Positions 9,242-57,151 of a stretch of 64,000 nucleotides of DNA are shown here, in pieces. Numbering within the stretch: the first letter of the stretch is position 1; the number at the start of each line of letters is the position of its first letter. Where the stretch lies: positions 2,157,001 through 2,221,000 of the forward strand of contig NZ_CP060096.1 in NCBI RefSeq assembly GCF_017357865.1, given 5' to 3'. A program made the position numbers and the translations under genes. This DNA comes from Aceticella autotrophica (GTDB lineage: Bacteria; Bacillota; Thermoanaerobacteria; Thermoanaerobacterales; Thermoanaerobacteraceae). The notes under the pieces are model-generated. The model was not told where the DNA came from. It saw only the letters and a program-made list of their open reading frames with translations, and made no database searches.

Positions 9242-10051
9242 TTATCTTTTCTTATTCCATGTATCAGATTCATATTTTTCTGTAAGCTGCTCAGCAATCT
9301 TACGTTCATAATCAGTAATATTTTCAACTTTCAAAGATATTTCAAATTCTTCTTCAAAGCCTCTTTTTATATTATCTGCTAATAAATTTATATCTATATC
9401 TTTATTTAAGATATTTTTGATTGTTGTGGATTTTTTCATAAGATTTTCTTTCAAAAAGTTTTTTGTCTTTTCAGATTTTAATCTTAACAATTCAATAAAC
9501 ATATCGAGATTCCAATCAATAACTATAGAACCATGTTGAAGCAACATCCCCTCATTCCTTGTTTGAGCACTTCCTACAAGCTTTTTCCCCTCTACTACTA
9601 TCTCATACCATGAAGGTGCATCAAAACAAGCTGCTGACAAAGACTTACCTTGCTCTGCCTTATGGACATTGTTTGCATCAATTCCTGTATGCTTCAATCC
9701 TCTTATTAAGGCTTCACTAATCTTTTTATATGAACCCATTATGGTTTTGTCCAAATAATCATTCACTTCTGGAATTACAAAACTGTATGTCAGCTCTGCA
9801 TCATGAAGAACAGCTCTTCCACCGGTTGGTCTTCTGACAATATCTACGCCGAATTTTTTACACATAGCTTCATTTACTTCTTTATCATATTTTTGAAAAT
9901 ATCCTAAGCTCAAACCGGGAGGATCCCATGTGTAAAATCTAAGAGTCGGAGGAACTTTTCCTTCTCTACATGCAGTCATAATAGCTTCGTCTATTGCCAT
10001 GTTTTTAAAGGCATTATGTTTTTCTATATGAATAAGACGCCATTCTTTCAT
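9242..10051 (-). CDS. lplA: Lipoate-protein ligase A family
   Basis: 269-residue biotin/lipoate ligase-fold protein. It carries RRPTGGRAVLHDAELTYSFV near residues 71-90 and GKKLVGSAQTRNEGMLLQHG near residues 150-170, containing the catalytic lysine. It would attach lipoate or octanoate to carrier proteins such as the GcvH at 10.1 kb and possibly the DGC-GcvH fusion at 51.9 kb. Start ATG 10051 follows GAGGGTGA; the open frame upstream runs into the gcvH terminator and is not coding. Octanoyltransferases (LipM/LipL) look similar, so a LipM-like octanoyl transfer together with LipA is possible. Confidence 0.88.
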   Translation of the reverse strand: MKEWRLIHIEKHNAFKNMAIDEAIMTACREGKVPPTLRFYTWDPPGLSLGYFQKYDKEVNEAMCKKFGVDIVRRPTGGRAVLHDAELTYSFVIPEVNDYLDKTIMGSYKKISEALIRGLKHTGIDANNVHKAEQGKSLSAACFDAPSWYEIVVEGKKLVGSAQTRNEGMLLQHGSIVIDWNLDMFIELLRLKSEKTKNFLKENLMKKSTTIKNILNKDIDINLLADNIKRGFEEEFEISLKVENITDYERKIAEQLTEKYESDTWNKKR

Positions 10052-10085
10052 TATTTCACCCTCATACTTTTTATAAAAATATTTT

Positions 10086-10116
10086 AAACAAGCCACTTTA
10101 AAAAGTGGCTTGTTTT
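10086..10116 (-). terminator. Terminator after gcvH
   Basis: Near-perfect hairpin made of AAACAAGCCACTT and AAGTGGCTTGTTT around a short A-rich loop, with T-runs on either side, 9 nt after the gcvH stop. It separates gcvH from lplA; some read-through may feed lplA and the cofactor genes. Confidence 0.85.
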
Positions 10117-10124
10117 TAGATTCC

Positions 10125-10502
10125 TTATTTTATACTGTTTTCATATTCTGTATTTGACATAAGATTATCTAATTCGGAAGAATCAGTCATCTTTACTTTA
10201 ATCATCCACCCATCACCATATGGGGACTCATTAACCTTTTCGGGAGAATCCTCCAATTCCGGATTAACCTCTATAACTTTACCGCTTACAGGCGCATAAA
10301 GGTCTGAAGCAACTTTAGCTGATTCAACTGTTCCAAAGGTTTCATCCTGTTTGATTTCATCTCCAACACCTGGAAGTTCGACATATAATATATCCCCAAG
10401 CTGATCCTGTGCATGGTCTGTAATCCCTATAACTGCAGTGTCACCTTCAGCTTTAGCCCAGGTGTGTTCTTTGTGATACTTGATATCTGACGGAAAATTC
10501 AT
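10125..10502 (-). CDS. gcvH: Lipoyl carrier protein GcvH (glycine cleavage H-type)
   Basis: 125-residue H protein. MNFPSDIKYHKEHTWAKAEG is the standard start, and the lipoyl lysine is K63 in GTVESAKVAS, followed by the APVSGKVIEVNPEL hinge. No gcvT or gcvP genes lie in the window: its neighbours are lplA and lipA, so either the other glycine cleavage genes are elsewhere or it serves another lipoate pathway. ATG 10502 follows AAGGAGGA. It is transcribed from its own promoter with a striking 13-bp inverted repeat just upstream and ends at a strong hairpin. Confidence 0.95.
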   Translation of the reverse strand: MNFPSDIKYHKEHTWAKAEGDTAVIGITDHAQDQLGDILYVELPGVGDEIKQDETFGTVESAKVASDLYAPVSGKVIEVNPELEDSPEKVNESPYGDGWMIKVKMTDSSELDNLMSNTEYENSIK

Positions 10503-10530
10503 TTTATATTCCTCCTTAAATATTTTATTT

Positions 10531-10573
10531 ATAAACATGAACATGTTTTTTAATAATACCTGTTCATGTTTAT
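10531..10573 (-). promoter_or_regulatory. 13-bp inverted repeat in the gcvH leader
   Basis: ATAAACATGAACA (10531-10543) and TGTTCATGTTTAT (10561-10573) are perfect complements around a 17-nt loop, ending about 28 nt before the gcvH start codon and just before its ribosome site. It could be an operator or an RNA hairpin that controls translation; no trailing T-run argues against a terminator. Confidence 0.6.
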
Positions 10574-10673
10574 TACAAAATTGTATTTATTATTTTTCGA
10601 TTCTATAAAACTTATACCATTTATGTATATACATAGCTTAATCTTTATATAGGATATTTAACCTGATGATTAT

Positions 10674-10702
10674 ATTATACTATCTATCCCATACAATAGC
10701 AA
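10674..10702 (-). promoter_or_regulatory. Promoter of gcvH
   Basis: Minus-strand TTGCTA (10697-10702) and TATAAT (10674-10679) spaced by 17 nt, about 170 nt before gcvH. Confidence 0.6.
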
Positions 10703-10753
10703 GCCTTCCGGAGGTTAAGTTTTTATTTTTGTCCTATTATTAAGAAAGGATTA

Positions 10754-11614
10754 CTATCCTTTTGCTATTTCTTTAAAAAATTCTTCTGCATTATAGGAAC
10801 TCCTTACAAAAGGAGATGATGATACATATTTAAATCCCATTTTCAGTGCTTCATCTTTATATTCCTCAAACATTTCAGGAGTAACAAATTCTTTTACTTC
10901 CAATTGTTCCTTAGAGGGTTTAAGATATTGCCCTAATGTAATCATATCACAATTATTTTCAAGAAGATCTTTCATAACCAGCAGTACTTCATCTTTCGTT
11001 TCTCCTAATCCCAGCATCATGCCAGATTTTGTATATATAGAGGGTTCCATCTCTTTAACAGTTTTTAATACTTCAAGTGAACGCCTATAAACCGCCTGCG
11101 GTCTAGCAATAGAGTAAAGCCGCGGTACGGTTTCAACATTATGCCCAATTACTTCCGGATGTGTTTTTACAACCATCTCTATTGCTTCATATGAAGCCTT
11201 AAAATCCGGTATAAGTAATTCAATAGTAGAATTAGGGCACTCTTTTCGTATGGCTTTTACTGTTTCCGCAAAAATTAATGCTCCTCCATCCTTCAAGTCA
11301 TCTCTTGTAACAGACGTTATTACCGCATGCTTAATCCTCAGCTCCTTAACTGCCTCAGCAACCCTTTCAGGTTCATCTGGATCTACAGGCAAAGGTTTTC
11401 CATTCATTACTGAACAAAACCGGCAATTTCTTGTACATGTATCCCCTAAAATCATGAAGGTAGCCGTTCTTTTTGCAAAACATTCACCAATATTAGGGCA
11501 TCGTGCACTTTCACAAACAGTATGCAATTTATGCTCCTTTGAGAATTCCTTTAGTTCTTTTAACAAAATGGCTTTGGGAGGCCTTTTCGTTAACCATTCA
11601 GGCAGTCTTTTCAT
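10754..11614 (-). CDS. lipA: Lipoyl synthase LipA
   Basis: 286-residue radical SAM enzyme that inserts two sulfurs into protein-bound octanoate. Both clusters are visible: the auxiliary CESARCPNIGECF motif near residue 34 and the radical SAM CTRNCRFC motif near residue 60; the C-terminal RSSY motif contains the serine ligand of the auxiliary cluster. It follows cooC on the same strand. A small hairpin (AAAGGAT / ATCCTTT) overlaps its stop codon. Confidence 0.96.
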   Translation of the reverse strand: MKRLPEWLTKRPPKAILLKELKEFSKEHKLHTVCESARCPNIGECFAKRTATFMILGDTCTRNCRFCSVMNGKPLPVDPDEPERVAEAVKELRIKHAVITSVTRDDLKDGGALIFAETVKAIRKECPNSTIELLIPDFKASYEAIEMVVKTHPEVIGHNVETVPRLYSIARPQAVYRRSLEVLKTVKEMEPSIYTKSGMMLGLGETKDEVLLVMKDLLENNCDMITLGQYLKPSKEQLEVKEFVTPEMFEEYKDEALKMGFKYVSSSPFVRSSYNAEEFFKEIAKG

Positions 11615-49153: not shown

Positions 49154-49504
49154 TCATTCAACTTCAATGCAATTCTCCCATATTCCATGTATATTACAAT
49201 ATGCTAAAGCACAAAATGCTTTAAATTCTTTTACATTAACTTGAAATCTAATATTAGGATTTGTATAAACAGGAGCAAAAGCCGCTCTTCCAAGTTGAAT
49301 TACTTGACCGTCCTTTTTTACACCAAAAAGTTCTATCCATGATATATGATGCTCTGCCGTATTTGGATGTGGAACTTCTTTTCCTACTATAACCCTTACA
49401 ATATCCACATCTTCTTTCCCATGTCCTTTACCTATTTCAATGATTGGAACATGTTTTTCTTTTCCTTCTGCTGTTTTACCTTTTAAAATTTCTTCAAACT
49501 TCAT
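49154..49504 (-). CDS. Superoxide reductase (neelaredoxin class)
   Basis: 116 residues. Iron ligands are visible in KHVPIIE (first His), PHPNTAEHHISWIELF (two His) and CNIHGIW (Cys and His). It lacks the N-terminal desulforedoxin domain, so it is the small class II type. It reduces superoxide to peroxide in anaerobes. Confidence 0.94.
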   Translation of the reverse strand: MKFEEILKGKTAEGKEKHVPIIEIGKGHGKEDVDIVRVIVGKEVPHPNTAEHHISWIELFGVKKDGQVIQLGRAAFAPVYTNPNIRFQVNVKEFKAFCALAYCNIHGIWENCIEVE

Positions 49505-50708: not shown

Positions 50709-51017
50709 TTAATCCGGTGGATTATCTTTTAAACTATTTACATAATCCAGCACATATCCTCTAACACATTTTATAATTTTTTTAACATTCTCATTATACA
50801 GCCTGTAGTGCATTTCAAGACCTACCTTTTCACTTTTAACTAATCCTGCATCTTTTAAAATTCTCAAATGCTGTGATAAATTTGCTTGACTGTATTCAAA
50901 CCTTTCATTTAACTTGCATACACATTTAGGTCCATCACATAAAAATTTCATTATTTTAAATCTCACCGGATGCCCAAGTGCTTTAAATATTTTTACTATT
51001 AAATCATCTTGATTCAA
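50709..51017 (-). CDS. ArsR-family transcriptional regulator with CxC motif
   Basis: 102-residue winged-helix repressor. FLCDGPKCVCKLNERF carries C27, C32 and C34; a further C84 lies near the C-terminus. C32-Val-C34 sits where As(III)-sensing ArsR has ELCVCDL. The recognition helix is SQANLSQHLRILKDAGLV. It starts at TTG 51017 after GGGAGGG. Divergent from the DGC/lipoyl operon, which it may control. Confidence 0.9.
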   Translation of the reverse strand: MNQDDLIVKIFKALGHPVRFKIMKFLCDGPKCVCKLNERFEYSQANLSQHLRILKDAGLVKSEKVGLEMHYRLYNENVKKIIKCVRGYVLDYVNSLKDNPPD

Positions 51018-51134: not shown

Positions 51135-51203
51135 TTGACTTTAAAAAATAAACGTGTATAATTATATATAAGCATTTAATTATGTATTTATGAAGATGCT
51201 TAT
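51135..51203 (+). promoter_or_regulatory. Promoter and operator of the DGC-lipoyl operon
   Basis: TTGACT (51135-51140), 16-nt spacer, TATAAT (51157-51162). Downstream, ATAAGCAT (51168-51175) and ATGCTTAT (51196-51203) form an 8-bp inverted repeat, a plausible ArsR binding site over the transcript start. Confidence 0.65.
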
Positions 51204-51261: not shown

Positions 51262-51639
51262 ATGGAAGAAAAACAATTACCCGGTTTTATTATGTGTGTA
51301 TGTACAGGAAAGTGTCCAGGATTTCAGGCAATGGATATCTGGGATTTTATCAATCAGGTTAGAGTAGAACTACCTGTAGAATATGCTTTTATTCACCCAC
51401 AACTATGTGAAGAAGATGGTGACAGATTCCTTGCTGATTTCTTAAAGGCTCGCAGAAAAGTGATAATTGGTGCCTGTGCTCCAAATATGCAAAGAAAAAT
51501 GTTTAAACAGGCTTTTAAAGATGCGGGTCTTGATATAGAAAAGGACGCTGTTATGCTGGACATAAGAGATATGACTAAAGAAAAAGCCATTGAAGTAGTT
51601 AAAAATGCTTTAAAAGATTTAGGACTTAAGGAGGAGTAG
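51262..51639 (+). CDS. Stand-alone HdrA N-terminal-like domain protein
   Basis: 125 residues with MCVCTGKCPGFQAMDIW, HPQLCEEDGDRFL and VIIGACAPNMQRKMFKQAF. The order of cysteine motifs matches the N-terminal domain of heterodisulfide reductase HdrA, but the flavin domain is absent. It leads the five-gene operon and might carry an Fe-S cluster. Similar domains exist in HdrA-associated proteins. Function unknown. Confidence 0.75.
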   Translation: MEEKQLPGFIMCVCTGKCPGFQAMDIWDFINQVRVELPVEYAFIHPQLCEEDGDRFLADFLKARRKVIIGACAPNMQRKMFKQAFKDAGLDIEKDAVMLDIRDMTKEKAIEVVKNALKDLGLKEE

Positions 51640-51641
51640 AT

Positions 51642-51935
51642 ATGAGTGAATCAACTTTTATGGGCGTTCCAAGGGAAAAAATAGATTGGAGTCCAAGAAT
51701 AGATTACGATAAATGCAACTACTGCATGGAATGCGTAAAATTCTGTCCTCATGATGTTTATGAAGTCAGAGAAAATGAAGAAAAGAAACTTATTGTAAAG
51801 AATCCTAACAACTGCGTTGTGTTCTGCCGTGCCTGTGGTAAAACCTGTGGCGTTGATGCAATATCCTTCCCAAATAAAAACGAAACAACAAAAATGATTA
51901 AAGAAATAAGGAAGGAGATGGAAGGTAATGAGTAA
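51642..51935 (+). CDS. Ferredoxin-like protein, two-cluster
   Basis: 97 residues. CNYCMECVKFCPHDVYE and a looser CVVFCRACGKTCGVDAISF. The opening GVPREKIDWSPRID is shared with the ferredoxin at 55.2 kb (YPREKVNWFPTID). It sits inside the DGC-lipoyl operon and is a likely electron carrier there. Confidence 0.88.
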   Translation: MSESTFMGVPREKIDWSPRIDYDKCNYCMECVKFCPHDVYEVRENEEKKLIVKNPNNCVVFCRACGKTCGVDAISFPNKNETTKMIKEIRKEMEGNE

Positions 51936-52779
51936 ATCTTATGCTATCCTTCCATGCAATGGACTTGATAAATGTGCTGGTTGTATTACAAGAGAAGTTG
52001 CTATAAAACTCACCGAAATTACAGATAGTGAAATTGTTTGTCCGGTTTTATATAGAATAGCTGATGCAAGATATAATAAAGTAGTTTCCGAAAAACCTCT
52101 TCTTGTAATTGATGGCTGTGCCACAAGATGTGCCAGCAAACTTGCCTCTGAAAAAGGGCTCAAAATTACTCAAAAAATTAACATAAGTGATGAAGCAAAA
52201 GCAAATAACTTAACTATAGGAAGCAGTTTAAGGATTGGAGCCAATGAATTAAAACTTGCTGATATTATAACTGATAAACTTACTAAAAAAGAAGAAAAAT
52301 CAGAAACCATCAACTCTTGTGTATTTCCTGAAAGTTTTGAATATGAGATTTATGCAAAAGACAAGTTTATATTCAGGATACCAAAGAAAGGCTTTTACTT
52401 TAATGAAAATGACTGCTGGGTTTATGTTTTAGGTAATAAAGCAAGAATAGGTGTGACAGATTACGTTCAACAGAGTTTATCAGATATAATATTCTTTGAG
52501 CCGCCAGTGGTAGGAAGCAACATAGAACAGTTTGGAGAAGCAGGTTCTATAGAATCAGGTAAGGCTGTTTTTGAAATAGTATGTCCTGTAAGCGGTACAA
52601 TTACCGCAGTAAATGAAAAACTGGTAGAATCACCTGAACTTATAAATGAAAATCCATATGAAAAAGGCTGGATTGCAGAAATAGAGTTATCTGACTTTGA
52701 AAGTGATAAAGAGTTTCTTTATGACTTTGATAAATACTTTGAAATAATAAAAAGAAAGGCGGATGAATTTCATGTCTAA
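51928..52779 (+). CDS. DGC-domain and GcvH lipoyl-domain fusion protein
   Basis: 283 residues. Residues 1-115: putative zinc-binding DGC domain, with ILPCNGLDKCAGC, then IDGCATRCASKLA (Cys64 and Cys68). Residues ~135-255: an H-protein lipoyl domain, NDCWVYVLGNKARIGVTDYV, with the lipoyl lysine K212 in SIESGKAVFEI and the CPVSGTITAVNEKL hinge; then PYEKGWIAEIEL. No glycine decarboxylase genes are nearby. It would carry a lipoamide arm next to a metal/thiol site. Two more DGC proteins follow. No known function for such a fusion. Confidence 0.85.
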   Translation: MSKSYAILPCNGLDKCAGCITREVAIKLTEITDSEIVCPVLYRIADARYNKVVSEKPLLVIDGCATRCASKLASEKGLKITQKINISDEAKANNLTIGSSLRIGANELKLADIITDKLTKKEEKSETINSCVFPESFEYEIYAKDKFIFRIPKKGFYFNENDCWVYVLGNKARIGVTDYVQQSLSDIIFFEPPVVGSNIEQFGEAGSIESGKAVFEIVCPVSGTITAVNEKLVESPELINENPYEKGWIAEIELSDFESDKEFLYDFDKYFEIIKRKADEFHV

Positions 52780-53173
52780 AGTAAAAGTTATACCATGTAG
52801 TGGTATTGGTAAAGTATTTGGTCTTATGGCAAGGGAAACAGTTTTTAAGGTTGTAAATGACTTGAGACCTAATGATACTGAAACTGTTTGCCTTGGCCAT
52901 ATAGTAACAGGAGATGCAGATGCTACAGAAAAAATCAAGGGATATTCCTGTATAACCTTAGATGGCTGTCCTAAATTATGTGCTTCCAAAAATGTTTCTC
53001 TTGCTGGTGGAATAGTAAAACAAGAATTAAGAACAGTCGATGAAATGAAAACCCATAAAGGCGTAGATGCTGGTACTGCAACAATGCTTACAGAGGATGG
53101 GTGGAAAATAGTAAATGAACTCGCAGAAAAAGTTTGTGCAAAAGTTGATGAGATATTAAAGGAGGCTGAATAG
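52772..53173 (+). CDS. DGC-domain putative zinc-binding protein (2)
   Basis: 133 residues. VIPCSGIGKVFG at the start and LDGCPKLCASKN in the middle; C in TVCLGHIV. Same fold as residues 1-115 of the fusion. ATG 52772 preferred over 52763 because of spacing from AAGGCGG. Operon member 4. Confidence 0.82.
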   Translation: MSKVKVIPCSGIGKVFGLMARETVFKVVNDLRPNDTETVCLGHIVTGDADATEKIKGYSCITLDGCPKLCASKNVSLAGGIVKQELRTVDEMKTHKGVDAGTATMLTEDGWKIVNELAEKVCAKVDEILKEAE

Positions 53174-53174
53174 T

Positions 53175-53570
53175 ATGACTAATTCAAAAATTGGAGTGTT
53201 ATCCTGTAGTGGTGAAGAATGTCTTGGTGGTACTATTTCAAGACTGGCTACAAGAAAAATGCTTGAAGAACTCCGTCCGGGTAAAACCGTTACTCTCTGC
53301 CTTCCATTGTATCTTGCAGGCGGAGAAGAAGAAAGATTTTTTGCAAAGGCCTATCCTGTTATTACAGTAGATGGATGCAGTAAATGCTGTGCTAAAAGAG
53401 CAACAGAAAAATACAGCGGAAAAGTAAGTGATACTGTGGTTGTATCAGATATATTAGGAGAAGATGTTGCTTTAAATAAAACTGTTTCTATAAAAGATTT
53501 AACAGAAGAACACTACAAAATGATAGATAAAGTTGCAGAAGAAATATGCAAAAAATTTGATAAAATATAA
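53175..53570 (+). CDS. DGC-domain putative zinc-binding protein (3)
   Basis: 131 residues. VLSCSGEECLGG, TLCLPLYLAGG, and VDGCSKCCAKRA. Last gene of the operon, one base after gene 4, ended by the hairpin-repeat at 53569-53597. Probable metal or sulfur site; function unknown. Confidence 0.82.
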   Translation: MTNSKIGVLSCSGEECLGGTISRLATRKMLEELRPGKTVTLCLPLYLAGGEEERFFAKAYPVITVDGCSKCCAKRATEKYSGKVSDTVVVSDILGEDVALNKTVSIKDLTEEHYKMIDKVAEEICKKFDKI

Positions 53571-55247: not shown

Positions 55248-55550
55248 TTATTTAATTTTGCCTTCTTCTTTTAATTGTTTTTTAACCTTTGCCCACATAC
55301 CTTCCTTTTTATAAAATTCACGTAATTCATTCAAGTCCGGAAACGAAATAGCTTTCCCAAGACAAAGGTTGGCACAAGTCATACAACCTACTAAACAATT
55401 ATATGGTCTTGCAACAACAGGTCCGTTTTCCGTCCAATCATAAACATTTTTACCGCAATTCATACAAATCCCACATTTGACGCATTTTTCAGGATCAATT
55501 GTAGGAAACCAATTAACCTTTTCCCTTGGATAATCAACTAACCAAGCCAT
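55248..55550 (-). CDS. Ferredoxin-like protein downstream of the permease
   Basis: 100 residues. CVKCGICMNCGKNVYDW, then CLVGCMTCANLCLGKAISF. Shares its opening with the operon ferredoxin at 51.6 kb. It follows the TauE-like permease on the same strand. Flanked by a 15-nt direct repeat TTCAGGGCAATTTTT (55206 and 55575). Likely a partner in sulfur or thiol redox metabolism (inference). Confidence 0.88.
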   Translation of the reverse strand: MAWLVDYPREKVNWFPTIDPEKCVKCGICMNCGKNVYDWTENGPVVARPYNCLVGCMTCANLCLGKAISFPDLNELREFYKKEGMWAKVKKQLKEEGKIK

Positions 55551-55609
55551 ACTAATTCCTCCTTTAATTCGATATTCAGGGCAATTTTTTATATAGTGTA
55601 CCCCTGCAT

Positions 55610-55632
55610 GGCAAACAAAACGTCCCCTTGCC
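55610..55632 (-). repeat. REP-like 23-nt palindrome, copy 3
   Basis: On the minus strand: GGCAAGGGGACGTTTTGT then TTGCC. Lies between ferredoxin and permease genes. Confidence 0.75.
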
Positions 55633-55638
55633 TAAGTC

Positions 55639-56466
55639 CTATATAGGCAAATGCAGCCATGCAAATACACCCATCATTTTTAATCCCATATACAAGAATA
55701 CAATAACGAAAATTGTTTTTAGCTGCTTTGCAGGAACTTTGTGGGCAATTAGTGACCCAACCACTGCCAATGGAATACTTGTACCTGCCAAAGCCAAGAA
55801 CTGTACCCAATTGACATAACCTGTGGAATATAGAGGCAACCCAGCAACTCCTAAGCCATTTATCAAGTAGGATATTGCACCACCTAAAGCGGAAAATGCC
55901 ATCATAAGCATAGATGTCCCAATGGCTTCATGCATTTTAAATCTTAAAGCAAGAACCATAACAGGTACCATCAATACTCCGCCACCGATTCCAATAATTC
56001 CCGATACAATACCCAATAATATGCCGCATATTACATATATCCATACGCTATCTACAGGCTCTTCATCTTGTTTTATAGGTTTTGCAGTTGCCATCCTTAT
56101 AGCACCTAAAACTACAGCAATACCAAATGCCTCTGTAAGAACTGCACCTGGTGTCTTAGAAGCAATATACGCACCTAAAAAAGAACCTGCAAAAGCTGAT
56201 ATTCCAAGAAGCATTCCCTGTTTCCATCTGACGGCTCCCTTATAATGATGTGTAATCGCACCGCTGATGGATGTAGGAAGCACAACCATCAAGTTAGTAC
56301 CAAAAGCAACCCTAATAGCAATAGTAGGATCCACACCTAAGCTTTTTAAAAGCCAGAACTGAACCGGAACCATAATAAAGCATCCGCCAACGCCAAGCAT
56401 ACCTGAAGCAAAGCCTACCGCCGCACCGGTTATGAGTAAAATTATAATCTCTGTCGTTAAACTCAT
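55639..56466 (-). CDS. TauE/SafE family sulfite/anion permease
   Basis: 275 residues with about eight membrane helices and two GMLGVGGCFIMVP / GIIGIGGGVLMVPVM repeats, the hallmark of the DUF81 family. Members export sulfite, sulfoacetate or other organosulfur anions. It is preceded by a 15-residue Cys/Trp peptide and an Fes-domain protein, and followed by a ferredoxin, so it is grouped with redox proteins here. The substrate is unknown. Confidence 0.92.
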   Translation of the reverse strand: MSLTTEIIILLITGAAVGFASGMLGVGGCFIMVPVQFWLLKSLGVDPTIAIRVAFGTNLMVVLPTSISGAITHHYKGAVRWKQGMLLGISAFAGSFLGAYIASKTPGAVLTEAFGIAVVLGAIRMATAKPIKQDEEPVDSVWIYVICGILLGIVSGIIGIGGGVLMVPVMVLALRFKMHEAIGTSMLMMAFSALGGAISYLINGLGVAGLPLYSTGYVNWVQFLALAGTSIPLAVVGSLIAHKVPAKQLKTIFVIVFLYMGLKMMGVFAWLHLPI

Positions 56467-56602: not shown

Positions 56603-57151
56603 TCAGAGCATCTCTGATATCTTTATATAATTTTCCGAGTCCAGCACCAGTTCCGAACAATCCGCAAGCGATACCTCATCTAATGCCAGTTTAGCAGCAA
56701 AAGCCATACAGGTCGAAAAACCACATTTTTTACAATTACTCTTAGGCAAATATTTAAAGATATCAATTGCCTTTGGCTGTTTCCATTCCTTGTAACTCGG
56801 TTCAATTTGTTCTCTCTGGAGAATGATATCATTGATGTATTTAATACACTCCTCGCTAATCTTATTAGCCGTATCTTTCTCTACAAAAGACCTTATAGAC
56901 ACTGTTTCCCCTTGAATTGCAACAGTCCATGGTTTGCCTTTATATTTTTCCGGGAATCCTCTAAAGTTAAATTTTATCCAATTCAGCTTGGAAATATATT
57001 TTGCTTTCTCGGCTGTAGCATTGATATACGGAAGTAAGTCTGTAAGGTCGCGGTCTACAGTTAATGTTGCAACAAGATTCTCGCTTCCGGCATGACAAGC
57101 TGTATAATCAAGTTTCATCTTATAATCCTTAATTATCGATAATTCTTCCAT
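56603..57151 (-). CDS. (Fe-S)-binding protein with Fes (corrinoid-protein-like) C-terminal domain
   Basis: 182 residues. The last ~55 residues, LPKSNCKKCGFSTCMAFAAKLALDEVSLADC, carry the four-Cys Fes motif found in the CODH/ACS gamma subunit and RACo-type proteins. The N-terminal ~125 residues have no family that I recognise. First gene of the permease run. Start ATG after GGAGG. Confidence 0.85.
   Translation of the reverse strand: MEELSIIKDYKMKLDYTACHAGSENLVATLTVDRDLTDLLPYINATAEKAKYISKLNWIKFNFRGFPEKYKGKPWTVAIQGETVSIRSFVEKDTANKISEECIKYINDIILQREQIEPSYKEWKQPKAIDIFKYLPKSNCKKCGFSTCMAFAAKLALDEVSLADCSELVLDSENYIKISEML

Follow-up and report, generated by a model that had tools for sequence, protein, structure and literature searches.

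Five co-directional open reading frames at 51262-53570 (+) of the window, the 64,000-nucleotide stretch of the Aceticella autotrophica genome analysed here, encode an HdrA N-terminal-domain-like (HdrA-N-like) protein, a 2[4Fe-4S] ferredoxin, a DGC–H-protein fusion and two free DGC proteins (DGC2 and DGC3). We propose, with a probability only just above one half (~ 0.52), that these genes constitute an anaerobic, ArsR-controlled thiol relay for trivalent arsenic that uses a lipoyl swinging arm. The gene neighbourhoods of this module suggest an undescribed, lipoate-based handling of arsenic by anaerobes. A broader reading is put forward more tentatively, at somewhat less than even odds: a ferredoxin-powered, lipoate-dependent arsenic machine, common to anaerobic bacteria and Asgard archaea, in which the lipoyl dithiol would be the arsenic carrier. 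Protein-bound lipoate, known from carbon (2-oxoacid/glycine) and sulfur (LbpA) metabolism, would thereby gain a third role.

The genes are closely packed, with junctions, in operon order, of a 2 nt gap, an 8 nt overlap, a 17 nt overlap and a 1 nt gap. The first (51262-51639, +) was recognised as an open reading frame with profile and PDB matches and encodes a 125-aa protein that resembles the HdrA N-terminus over residues 8-93 (NCBIfam, 6.6e-5; PDB 7bkb, E = 0.0012). In the 7bkb alignment its C12, C14, C49 and C72 line up with HdrA cysteines, a likeness to the N-terminal domain of heterodisulfide reductase HdrA (PDB 7bkb, 5odc) from which the module protein departs in being free-standing, in having a fifth invariant cysteine (C18) and in lacking an FAD domain. 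The 97-aa ferredoxin (51642-51935, +) has eight conserved cysteines and matches Pfam dicluster ferredoxin models. The 283-aa fusion (51928-52779, +) joins a Pfam DGC domain at residues 6-92 (E = 1.2e-18), with Cys10, Cys38, Cys64 and Cys68, to a GCV_H domain at residues 157-275 (E = 1.2e-32), with K212 in a lipoyl-acceptor motif, ESGK. The GCV_H score of 112.8 bits (cut-off 22.2) and the presence of the acceptor lysine identify a lipoyl-carrier fold (PF01597). DGC2 (52763-53173, +; 136 aa; Cys12/43/69/73) and DGC3 (53175-53570, +; 131 aa; Cys11/42/68/72) complete the operon. Its three DGC domains score 67.5, 48.5 and 68.5 bits against a gathering score of 27 and carry the motif of the putative zinc-binding DGC family (PF08859), from which at large the operon differs in holding three members, one of them lipoyl-fused. 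The original prediction had described this 283-residue fusion with Cys64, Cys68 and K212, together with two free DGC proteins, an HdrA-N-like protein and a ferredoxin, co-directional and with touching or overlapping ends. The reading frames and Pfam/NCBIfam matches agree, and the residue positions are correct and invariant in complete homologues.

AlphaFold2 predicts confident domains for the fusion (mean pLDDT 89.6) with no fixed inter-domain orientation (pTM 0.54) and a low-confidence linker at residues 122-130, as expected of a swinging carrier. The model of DGC3 is a compact alpha/beta domain (pLDDT 95). Foldseek with the DGC model returned no match at E ≤ 0.001, the best VIA Z for the fold is 8.0, to unrelated proteins, and no fold match suggests a function. 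The likeness of the fold to pI258 ArsC (Z 6.5) is level with that to many unrelated folds, and nothing is concluded from it. A sequence search found no solved DGC structure, and we found no characterised DGC member in the literature searched.

Searching GTDB species genomes for the fusion yielded 65 loci, nearly all of which hold a complete copy. These come from Clostridia, Eubacteriaceae (Acetobacterium, Eubacterium), Bacteroidota, a few other phyla and Asgard archaea. All five genes occur in one order and on one strand in 61 of 65 loci analysed by tblastn, a set that includes the window and one genome of the same family, and the remaining four loci are contig ends or masked sequence. This recurrence excludes the worry, raised with the original prediction, that the fused gene is an assembly artefact, and the search for the fusion and its neighbours in other genomes that had been proposed finds the five-gene unit kept across Bacillota, Bacteroidota and Asgard archaea. 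Conservation extends to the residues that would do the chemistry: K212 is kept in all 63 complete fusion copies, Cys12/14/18/49/72 of the HdrA-N-like protein are invariant (64/64), the eight ferredoxin cysteines are kept in 98-100% of homologues, and the four cysteines of each DGC domain, in the fusion, DGC2 and DGC3 alike, are present in 100%. The module cysteines and K212 are conserved down to the Asgard archaea, whose fusion copies form one clade in a maximum-likelihood tree. In the same tree the window fusion groups with Clostridium species (96/87), and the fusion of the same-family genome (G018) groups with that of Caloramator fervidus (100/100). This placement fits horizontal transfer, as expected of resistance genes. 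The module on one contig labelled as an Alphaproteobacteria MAG (L060) is nested in Bacteroidota and is probably misbinned. No plasmid record covers the fusion; plasmid matches are to the H domain only, and mostly to gcvH.

Is the H domain lipoylated, and for what? The source genome is a single, complete contig of 2.27 Mb in which we found no GcvP over the cut-off (one match of 20.8 bits lies below it), no GcvT over the cut-off anywhere and no 2-oxoacid dehydrogenase E2. The same searches recovered each of these families in 10-11 of 14 control genomes. The original statement that no gcvT or gcvP is nearby was thus an understatement. Genomics gives good, though indirect, support for lipoylation of K212: this genome, lacking GcvP, GcvT and E2, keeps the lipoyl synthase LipA (10754-11614, -; 388 bits, cut-off 310) and an LplA/LipM-family lipoyl (octanoyl) transferase (9242-10096, -), the candidate modifier of K212. 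Clustered with them at 9242-11614 is a canonical H-protein gene, gcvH (10125-10544, -), separate from the fusion, whose product may be a lipoyl/octanoyl relay or a second carrier.

Among 50 other genomes that bear the fusion, true GcvP (E < 1e-100) is present in 36 and absent from 14, so homologues are not always found beside gcvP or gcvT, an arrangement that would have spoken against the original prediction; E2 is also absent from 7 of the 14. LplA lies beside the module in all seven genomes without GcvP and E2 and in 5 of the 43 others (Fisher p = 8e-6, an optimistic value since related species are not independent). Over 64 loci, LplA occurs in 12, and where it is downstream-adjacent it is always on the same strand (10/10), at a median of 103 nt from the module; in the window it is not beside the module. 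This is the pattern expected if the fusion is a lipoate client. Use of the H domain in glycine cleavage, or as a lipoyl relay in maturation, is disfavoured and seems very improbable. The fusion shares with GcvH (PF01597) the H-protein domain and the lipoyl lysine motif, with ~ 33-47% identity to matched H-proteins, and its H domain reaches 119.6 bits with PRK01202, just over the threshold of 117. However, it scores 109.5 bits with the gcvH equivalog TIGR00527, below the cut-off of 115.85, it has an N-terminal DGC domain and no P or T partners in the genome, and a separate standard gcvH is available for any relay. With GcvP and GcvT missing from the complete genome and true GcvP from 14 of the 50, we reject glycine cleavage. 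By contrast, conservation and the association with lipoate ligase lend good support to a lipoamide arm that would serve the cysteine-rich DGC domains independently of glycine cleavage.

A carrier of this kind has a precedent in LbpA, a GcvH-like lipoate-binding protein of Hdr-like (sHdr) sulfur oxidation that has its own LplA (PMC6067878). Both are GcvH-like lipoyl carriers that stand apart from carbon metabolism and have an Hdr homologue in their gene cluster; a dedicated LplA is a frequent companion, for the module in 12 of the 64 loci and not in the window. They differ in that the module carrier is fused to DGC and accompanied only by an HdrA N-terminal domain and a ferredoxin, with no HdrB/C set, and in their hosts, which are sulfur oxidisers for LbpA and anaerobes with arsenic genes for the module. 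The analogy with Hdr-like sulfur oxidation drawn in the original prediction is loose: only 125 residues of the HdrA N-terminus and a small ferredoxin are present, and no hdrC1B1AC2B2-type cluster, HdrB or HdrC occurs among the recurrent neighbours of the 64 loci. A full Hdr-like sulfur oxidation system is rejected on this ground.

The same precedent underlies the main rival to an arsenic relay, a sulfur (persulfide) carrier, which we consider rather unlikely. As proposed for LbpA, sulfane sulfur from a CoA-disulfide reductase/rhodanese or a cysteine desulfurase would pass to the lipoyl arm and on to DGC cysteines; arsenic genes would lie nearby since persulfide thiolates or detoxifies arsenic, or through shared stress islands. 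CoA-disulfide reductase, rhodanese or cysteine-desulfurase-like genes do occur in 47 of the 64 loci. CoA-disulfide reductase, whose representative also has a rhodanese-like C-terminus, is present in 34 and, where upstream, is always on the same strand (25/25), at a median of 48 nt from the first gene; for rhodanese the median is 86 nt from the module. Set against this, DsrE and TusA are, like HdrB/HdrC, missing from the recurrent neighbour clusters of the 64 loci, and the ferredoxin/HdrA-N pair is arsenic-linked even in settings without CoA-disulfide reductase, rhodanese or cysteine desulfurase, as described below. The two readings would merge if the product is a thioarsenical. Matches to Sao/Tso selenoprotein systems are distant only. 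Elsewhere in the neighbourhood, a protein at 56603-57151 of the window ends in an FeS domain resembling the one in the acetyl-CoA decarbonylase/synthase gamma subunit, and proteins with this domain occur close to the module in 11 loci, frequently next to a cysteine-desulfurase-like gene. A second ferredoxin (39% identity to that of the operon) and a TauE/SafE-type permease adjoin at 55248-56466; similar second ferredoxins occur near the module in four other loci (L031, L035, L038, L048), and the permease recurs in two (L074, L082).

Some 245 nt upstream of the operon, a divergent gene (50709-51017, -) encodes an ArsR/SmtB-family protein (Pfam/NCBIfam match) with a CxC motif, KCVCKL, and is likely to regulate the operon. 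Between the two lie a candidate sigma-70 promoter, TTGACT-16-TATAAT (51135-51162, +; 11/12 consensus positions), whose position and quality are suggestive only, as such matches are no more numerous in the region than chance would give, and, directly after the -10 element, a candidate ArsR operator (51168-51203), a perfect 8-nt inverted repeat, ATAAGCAT-N20-ATGCTTAT. No terminator-like site was found 3' of the operon. Beyond the ArsR gene is a superoxide reductase gene with a desulfoferrodoxin iron-binding domain (49154-49504, -).

Flanking proteins of the module were clustered, their representatives named with NCBIfam and the 64 loci surveyed by tblastn. ArsR is found in 51 loci, mostly with the CxC metalloid-binding motif, and at least one of ACR3, ArsA, ArsD, ArsM, ArsP and ArsC within ~ 6 kb in 35. 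ACR3 (16 loci), ArsA (12), ArsM (7) and ArsD (6) have representatives that pass NCBIfam cut-offs (445 bits for ACR3, 855 bits for ArsA). ArsC-like proteins (17 loci; representative below the NCBIfam arsenate-reductase cut-offs) and ArsP-like proteins (8 loci; representative below its own cut-offs) are less securely named, and ArsE-family thioredoxin and CcdA occur in 25 loci each. Of 50 genomes, 14 have ACR3 inside the locus, where copy number and genome size would predict 0.15. ACR3 lies ~ 2.7 kb from the module, farther than the sulfur and disulfide enzymes. In the window, ArsR is the sole ars-like gene, so that we infer the arsenic link from relatives, and the window is one of 13 of the 64 loci, Asgard loci among them, with none of the listed arsenic enzymes and transporters or sulfur enzymes; most of these still have ArsR. 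Asgard loci have ArsR at most, with one of them also holding a TauE-type permease. The source genome lacks ACR3, ArsB and ArsP altogether, so that its module stands with ArsR only, which counts against the arsenic reading. In the same-family genome, the ACR3 gene that adjoins the module (L089:6829-7600) appears interrupted, with two frames and a best single match of 214 bits against a cut-off of 283.

The module resembles the ars operons of anaerobes (ACR3, ArsA, ArsD, ArsM, ArsE-type thioredoxin, ArsP-like) in its type of regulator and, in relatives, in its neighbourhood. It differs from them in that no NCBIfam ars-protein model names the HdrA-N-like protein, the fusion, DGC2 or DGC3, and in that the source genome has the module and ArsR without ACR3, ArsB or ArsP. 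ArsR-family sensors respond to other metals too, and the CxC type binds several; in the window, as in a few relatives, a CDF exporter adjoins the operon. The same relay might then serve another thiophilic element (antimony, selenium, tellurium, cadmium or mercury), but we hold this to be quite improbable: ACR3, ArsA, ArsD and ArsM are specific to arsenic (or arsenic/antimony), and we saw neither mercury nor tellurite genes in the recurrent neighbour clusters. The original prediction had a lipoamide arm passing sulfur, selenium or a metalloid between DGC thiols. The arm is well supported by the conservation and the lipoate ligase; as to cargo, the neighbourhoods point to the metalloid arsenic, with persulfide enzymes also close.

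A separate line of evidence comes from the redox half of the module. In an HdrA-N profile search of 398 genomes of the phylum, full modules score 220+ bits, and a second tier at ~ 115 bits consists of ferredoxin/HdrA-N pairs standing without DGC or H genes in other thermophiles. Within 1.5 kb of the stand-alone pair, 10 of the 14 loci have ArsR and four have ACR3 or fragments of this gene, and the wider regions of several pairs hold ArsR-ACR3-ArsC or ArsA-ArsD sets. Since these DGC-less pairs adjoin ArsR and ACR3, the redox half appears, from its gene context, to be arsenic-linked by itself. Examples of the free pair beside ArsR and ACR3 come from relatives of the same family and the same class in which the full module is missing (L103-L113, L114-L120).

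The redox half also invites a more general explanation, in which ferredoxin, the HdrA-N-like protein and the lipoyl-H domain act as a ferredoxin:lipoamide reductase for recycling thiols that arsenic, oxygen or metals have damaged. The DGC proteins would then be zinc or Fe-S thiol partners, and arsenic would not be handled directly. Thioredoxin, CcdA or ArsE-type thioredoxin neighbours in 30 of the 64 loci, and the superoxide reductase gene close to the window's operon, would suit such a role. It leaves unexplained three four-cysteine DGC proteins and the specific enrichment of arsenic genes, and we regard it as improbable.

For the arsenic relay, we infer the chemistry of the module as follows. 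Dihydrolipoyl dithiol is a classical high-affinity ligand of As(III), and lipoate is the textbook target of arsenite poisoning. K212 would be lipoylated by LplA, and in the source genome by the LplA/LipM-type transferase with LipA. Reduced ferredoxin would feed electrons into a [4Fe-4S] cluster of the HdrA-N-like protein, a cluster that the HdrA N-terminal domain presumably holds, going by Hdr structures. The HdrA-N-like protein would hold the lipoyl disulfide and the cysteines of the DGC domains in reduced form, aided by CoA-disulfide reductase/rhodanese where present. The dihydrolipoyl dithiol would then capture arsenite or an organoarsenical, and the lipoyl arm would move the arsenic from one four-cysteine site to another, among those in the fused DGC domain, DGC2 and DGC3. 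The affinity of dithiols for arsenite is established chemistry (PMC7072575). The fate of the arsenic is the least certain step, and may be reduction, thiolation or hand-over to ACR3/ArsA.

Among open-licence papers we found no published description of the module and no link of DGC or lipoyl proteins to arsenic, which is weak evidence of absence. We class the module as a variant among lipoyl-carrier systems, one found in an arsenic setting; it would represent a new role for lipoate if the arsenic reading is confirmed. Should that reading be true, lipoate, the classical victim of arsenite, becomes an arsenic-handling tool, the uncharacterised DGC family gains a function, and there is an explanation for why lipoate is made or salvaged by some anaerobes in which no lipoyl enzyme is known. 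The module is found in acetogens used in the laboratory and in industry (Clostridium ljungdahlii, Acetobacterium and Eubacterium callanderi), which makes it genetically testable, and it bears on the mobility of arsenic in anoxic sediments.
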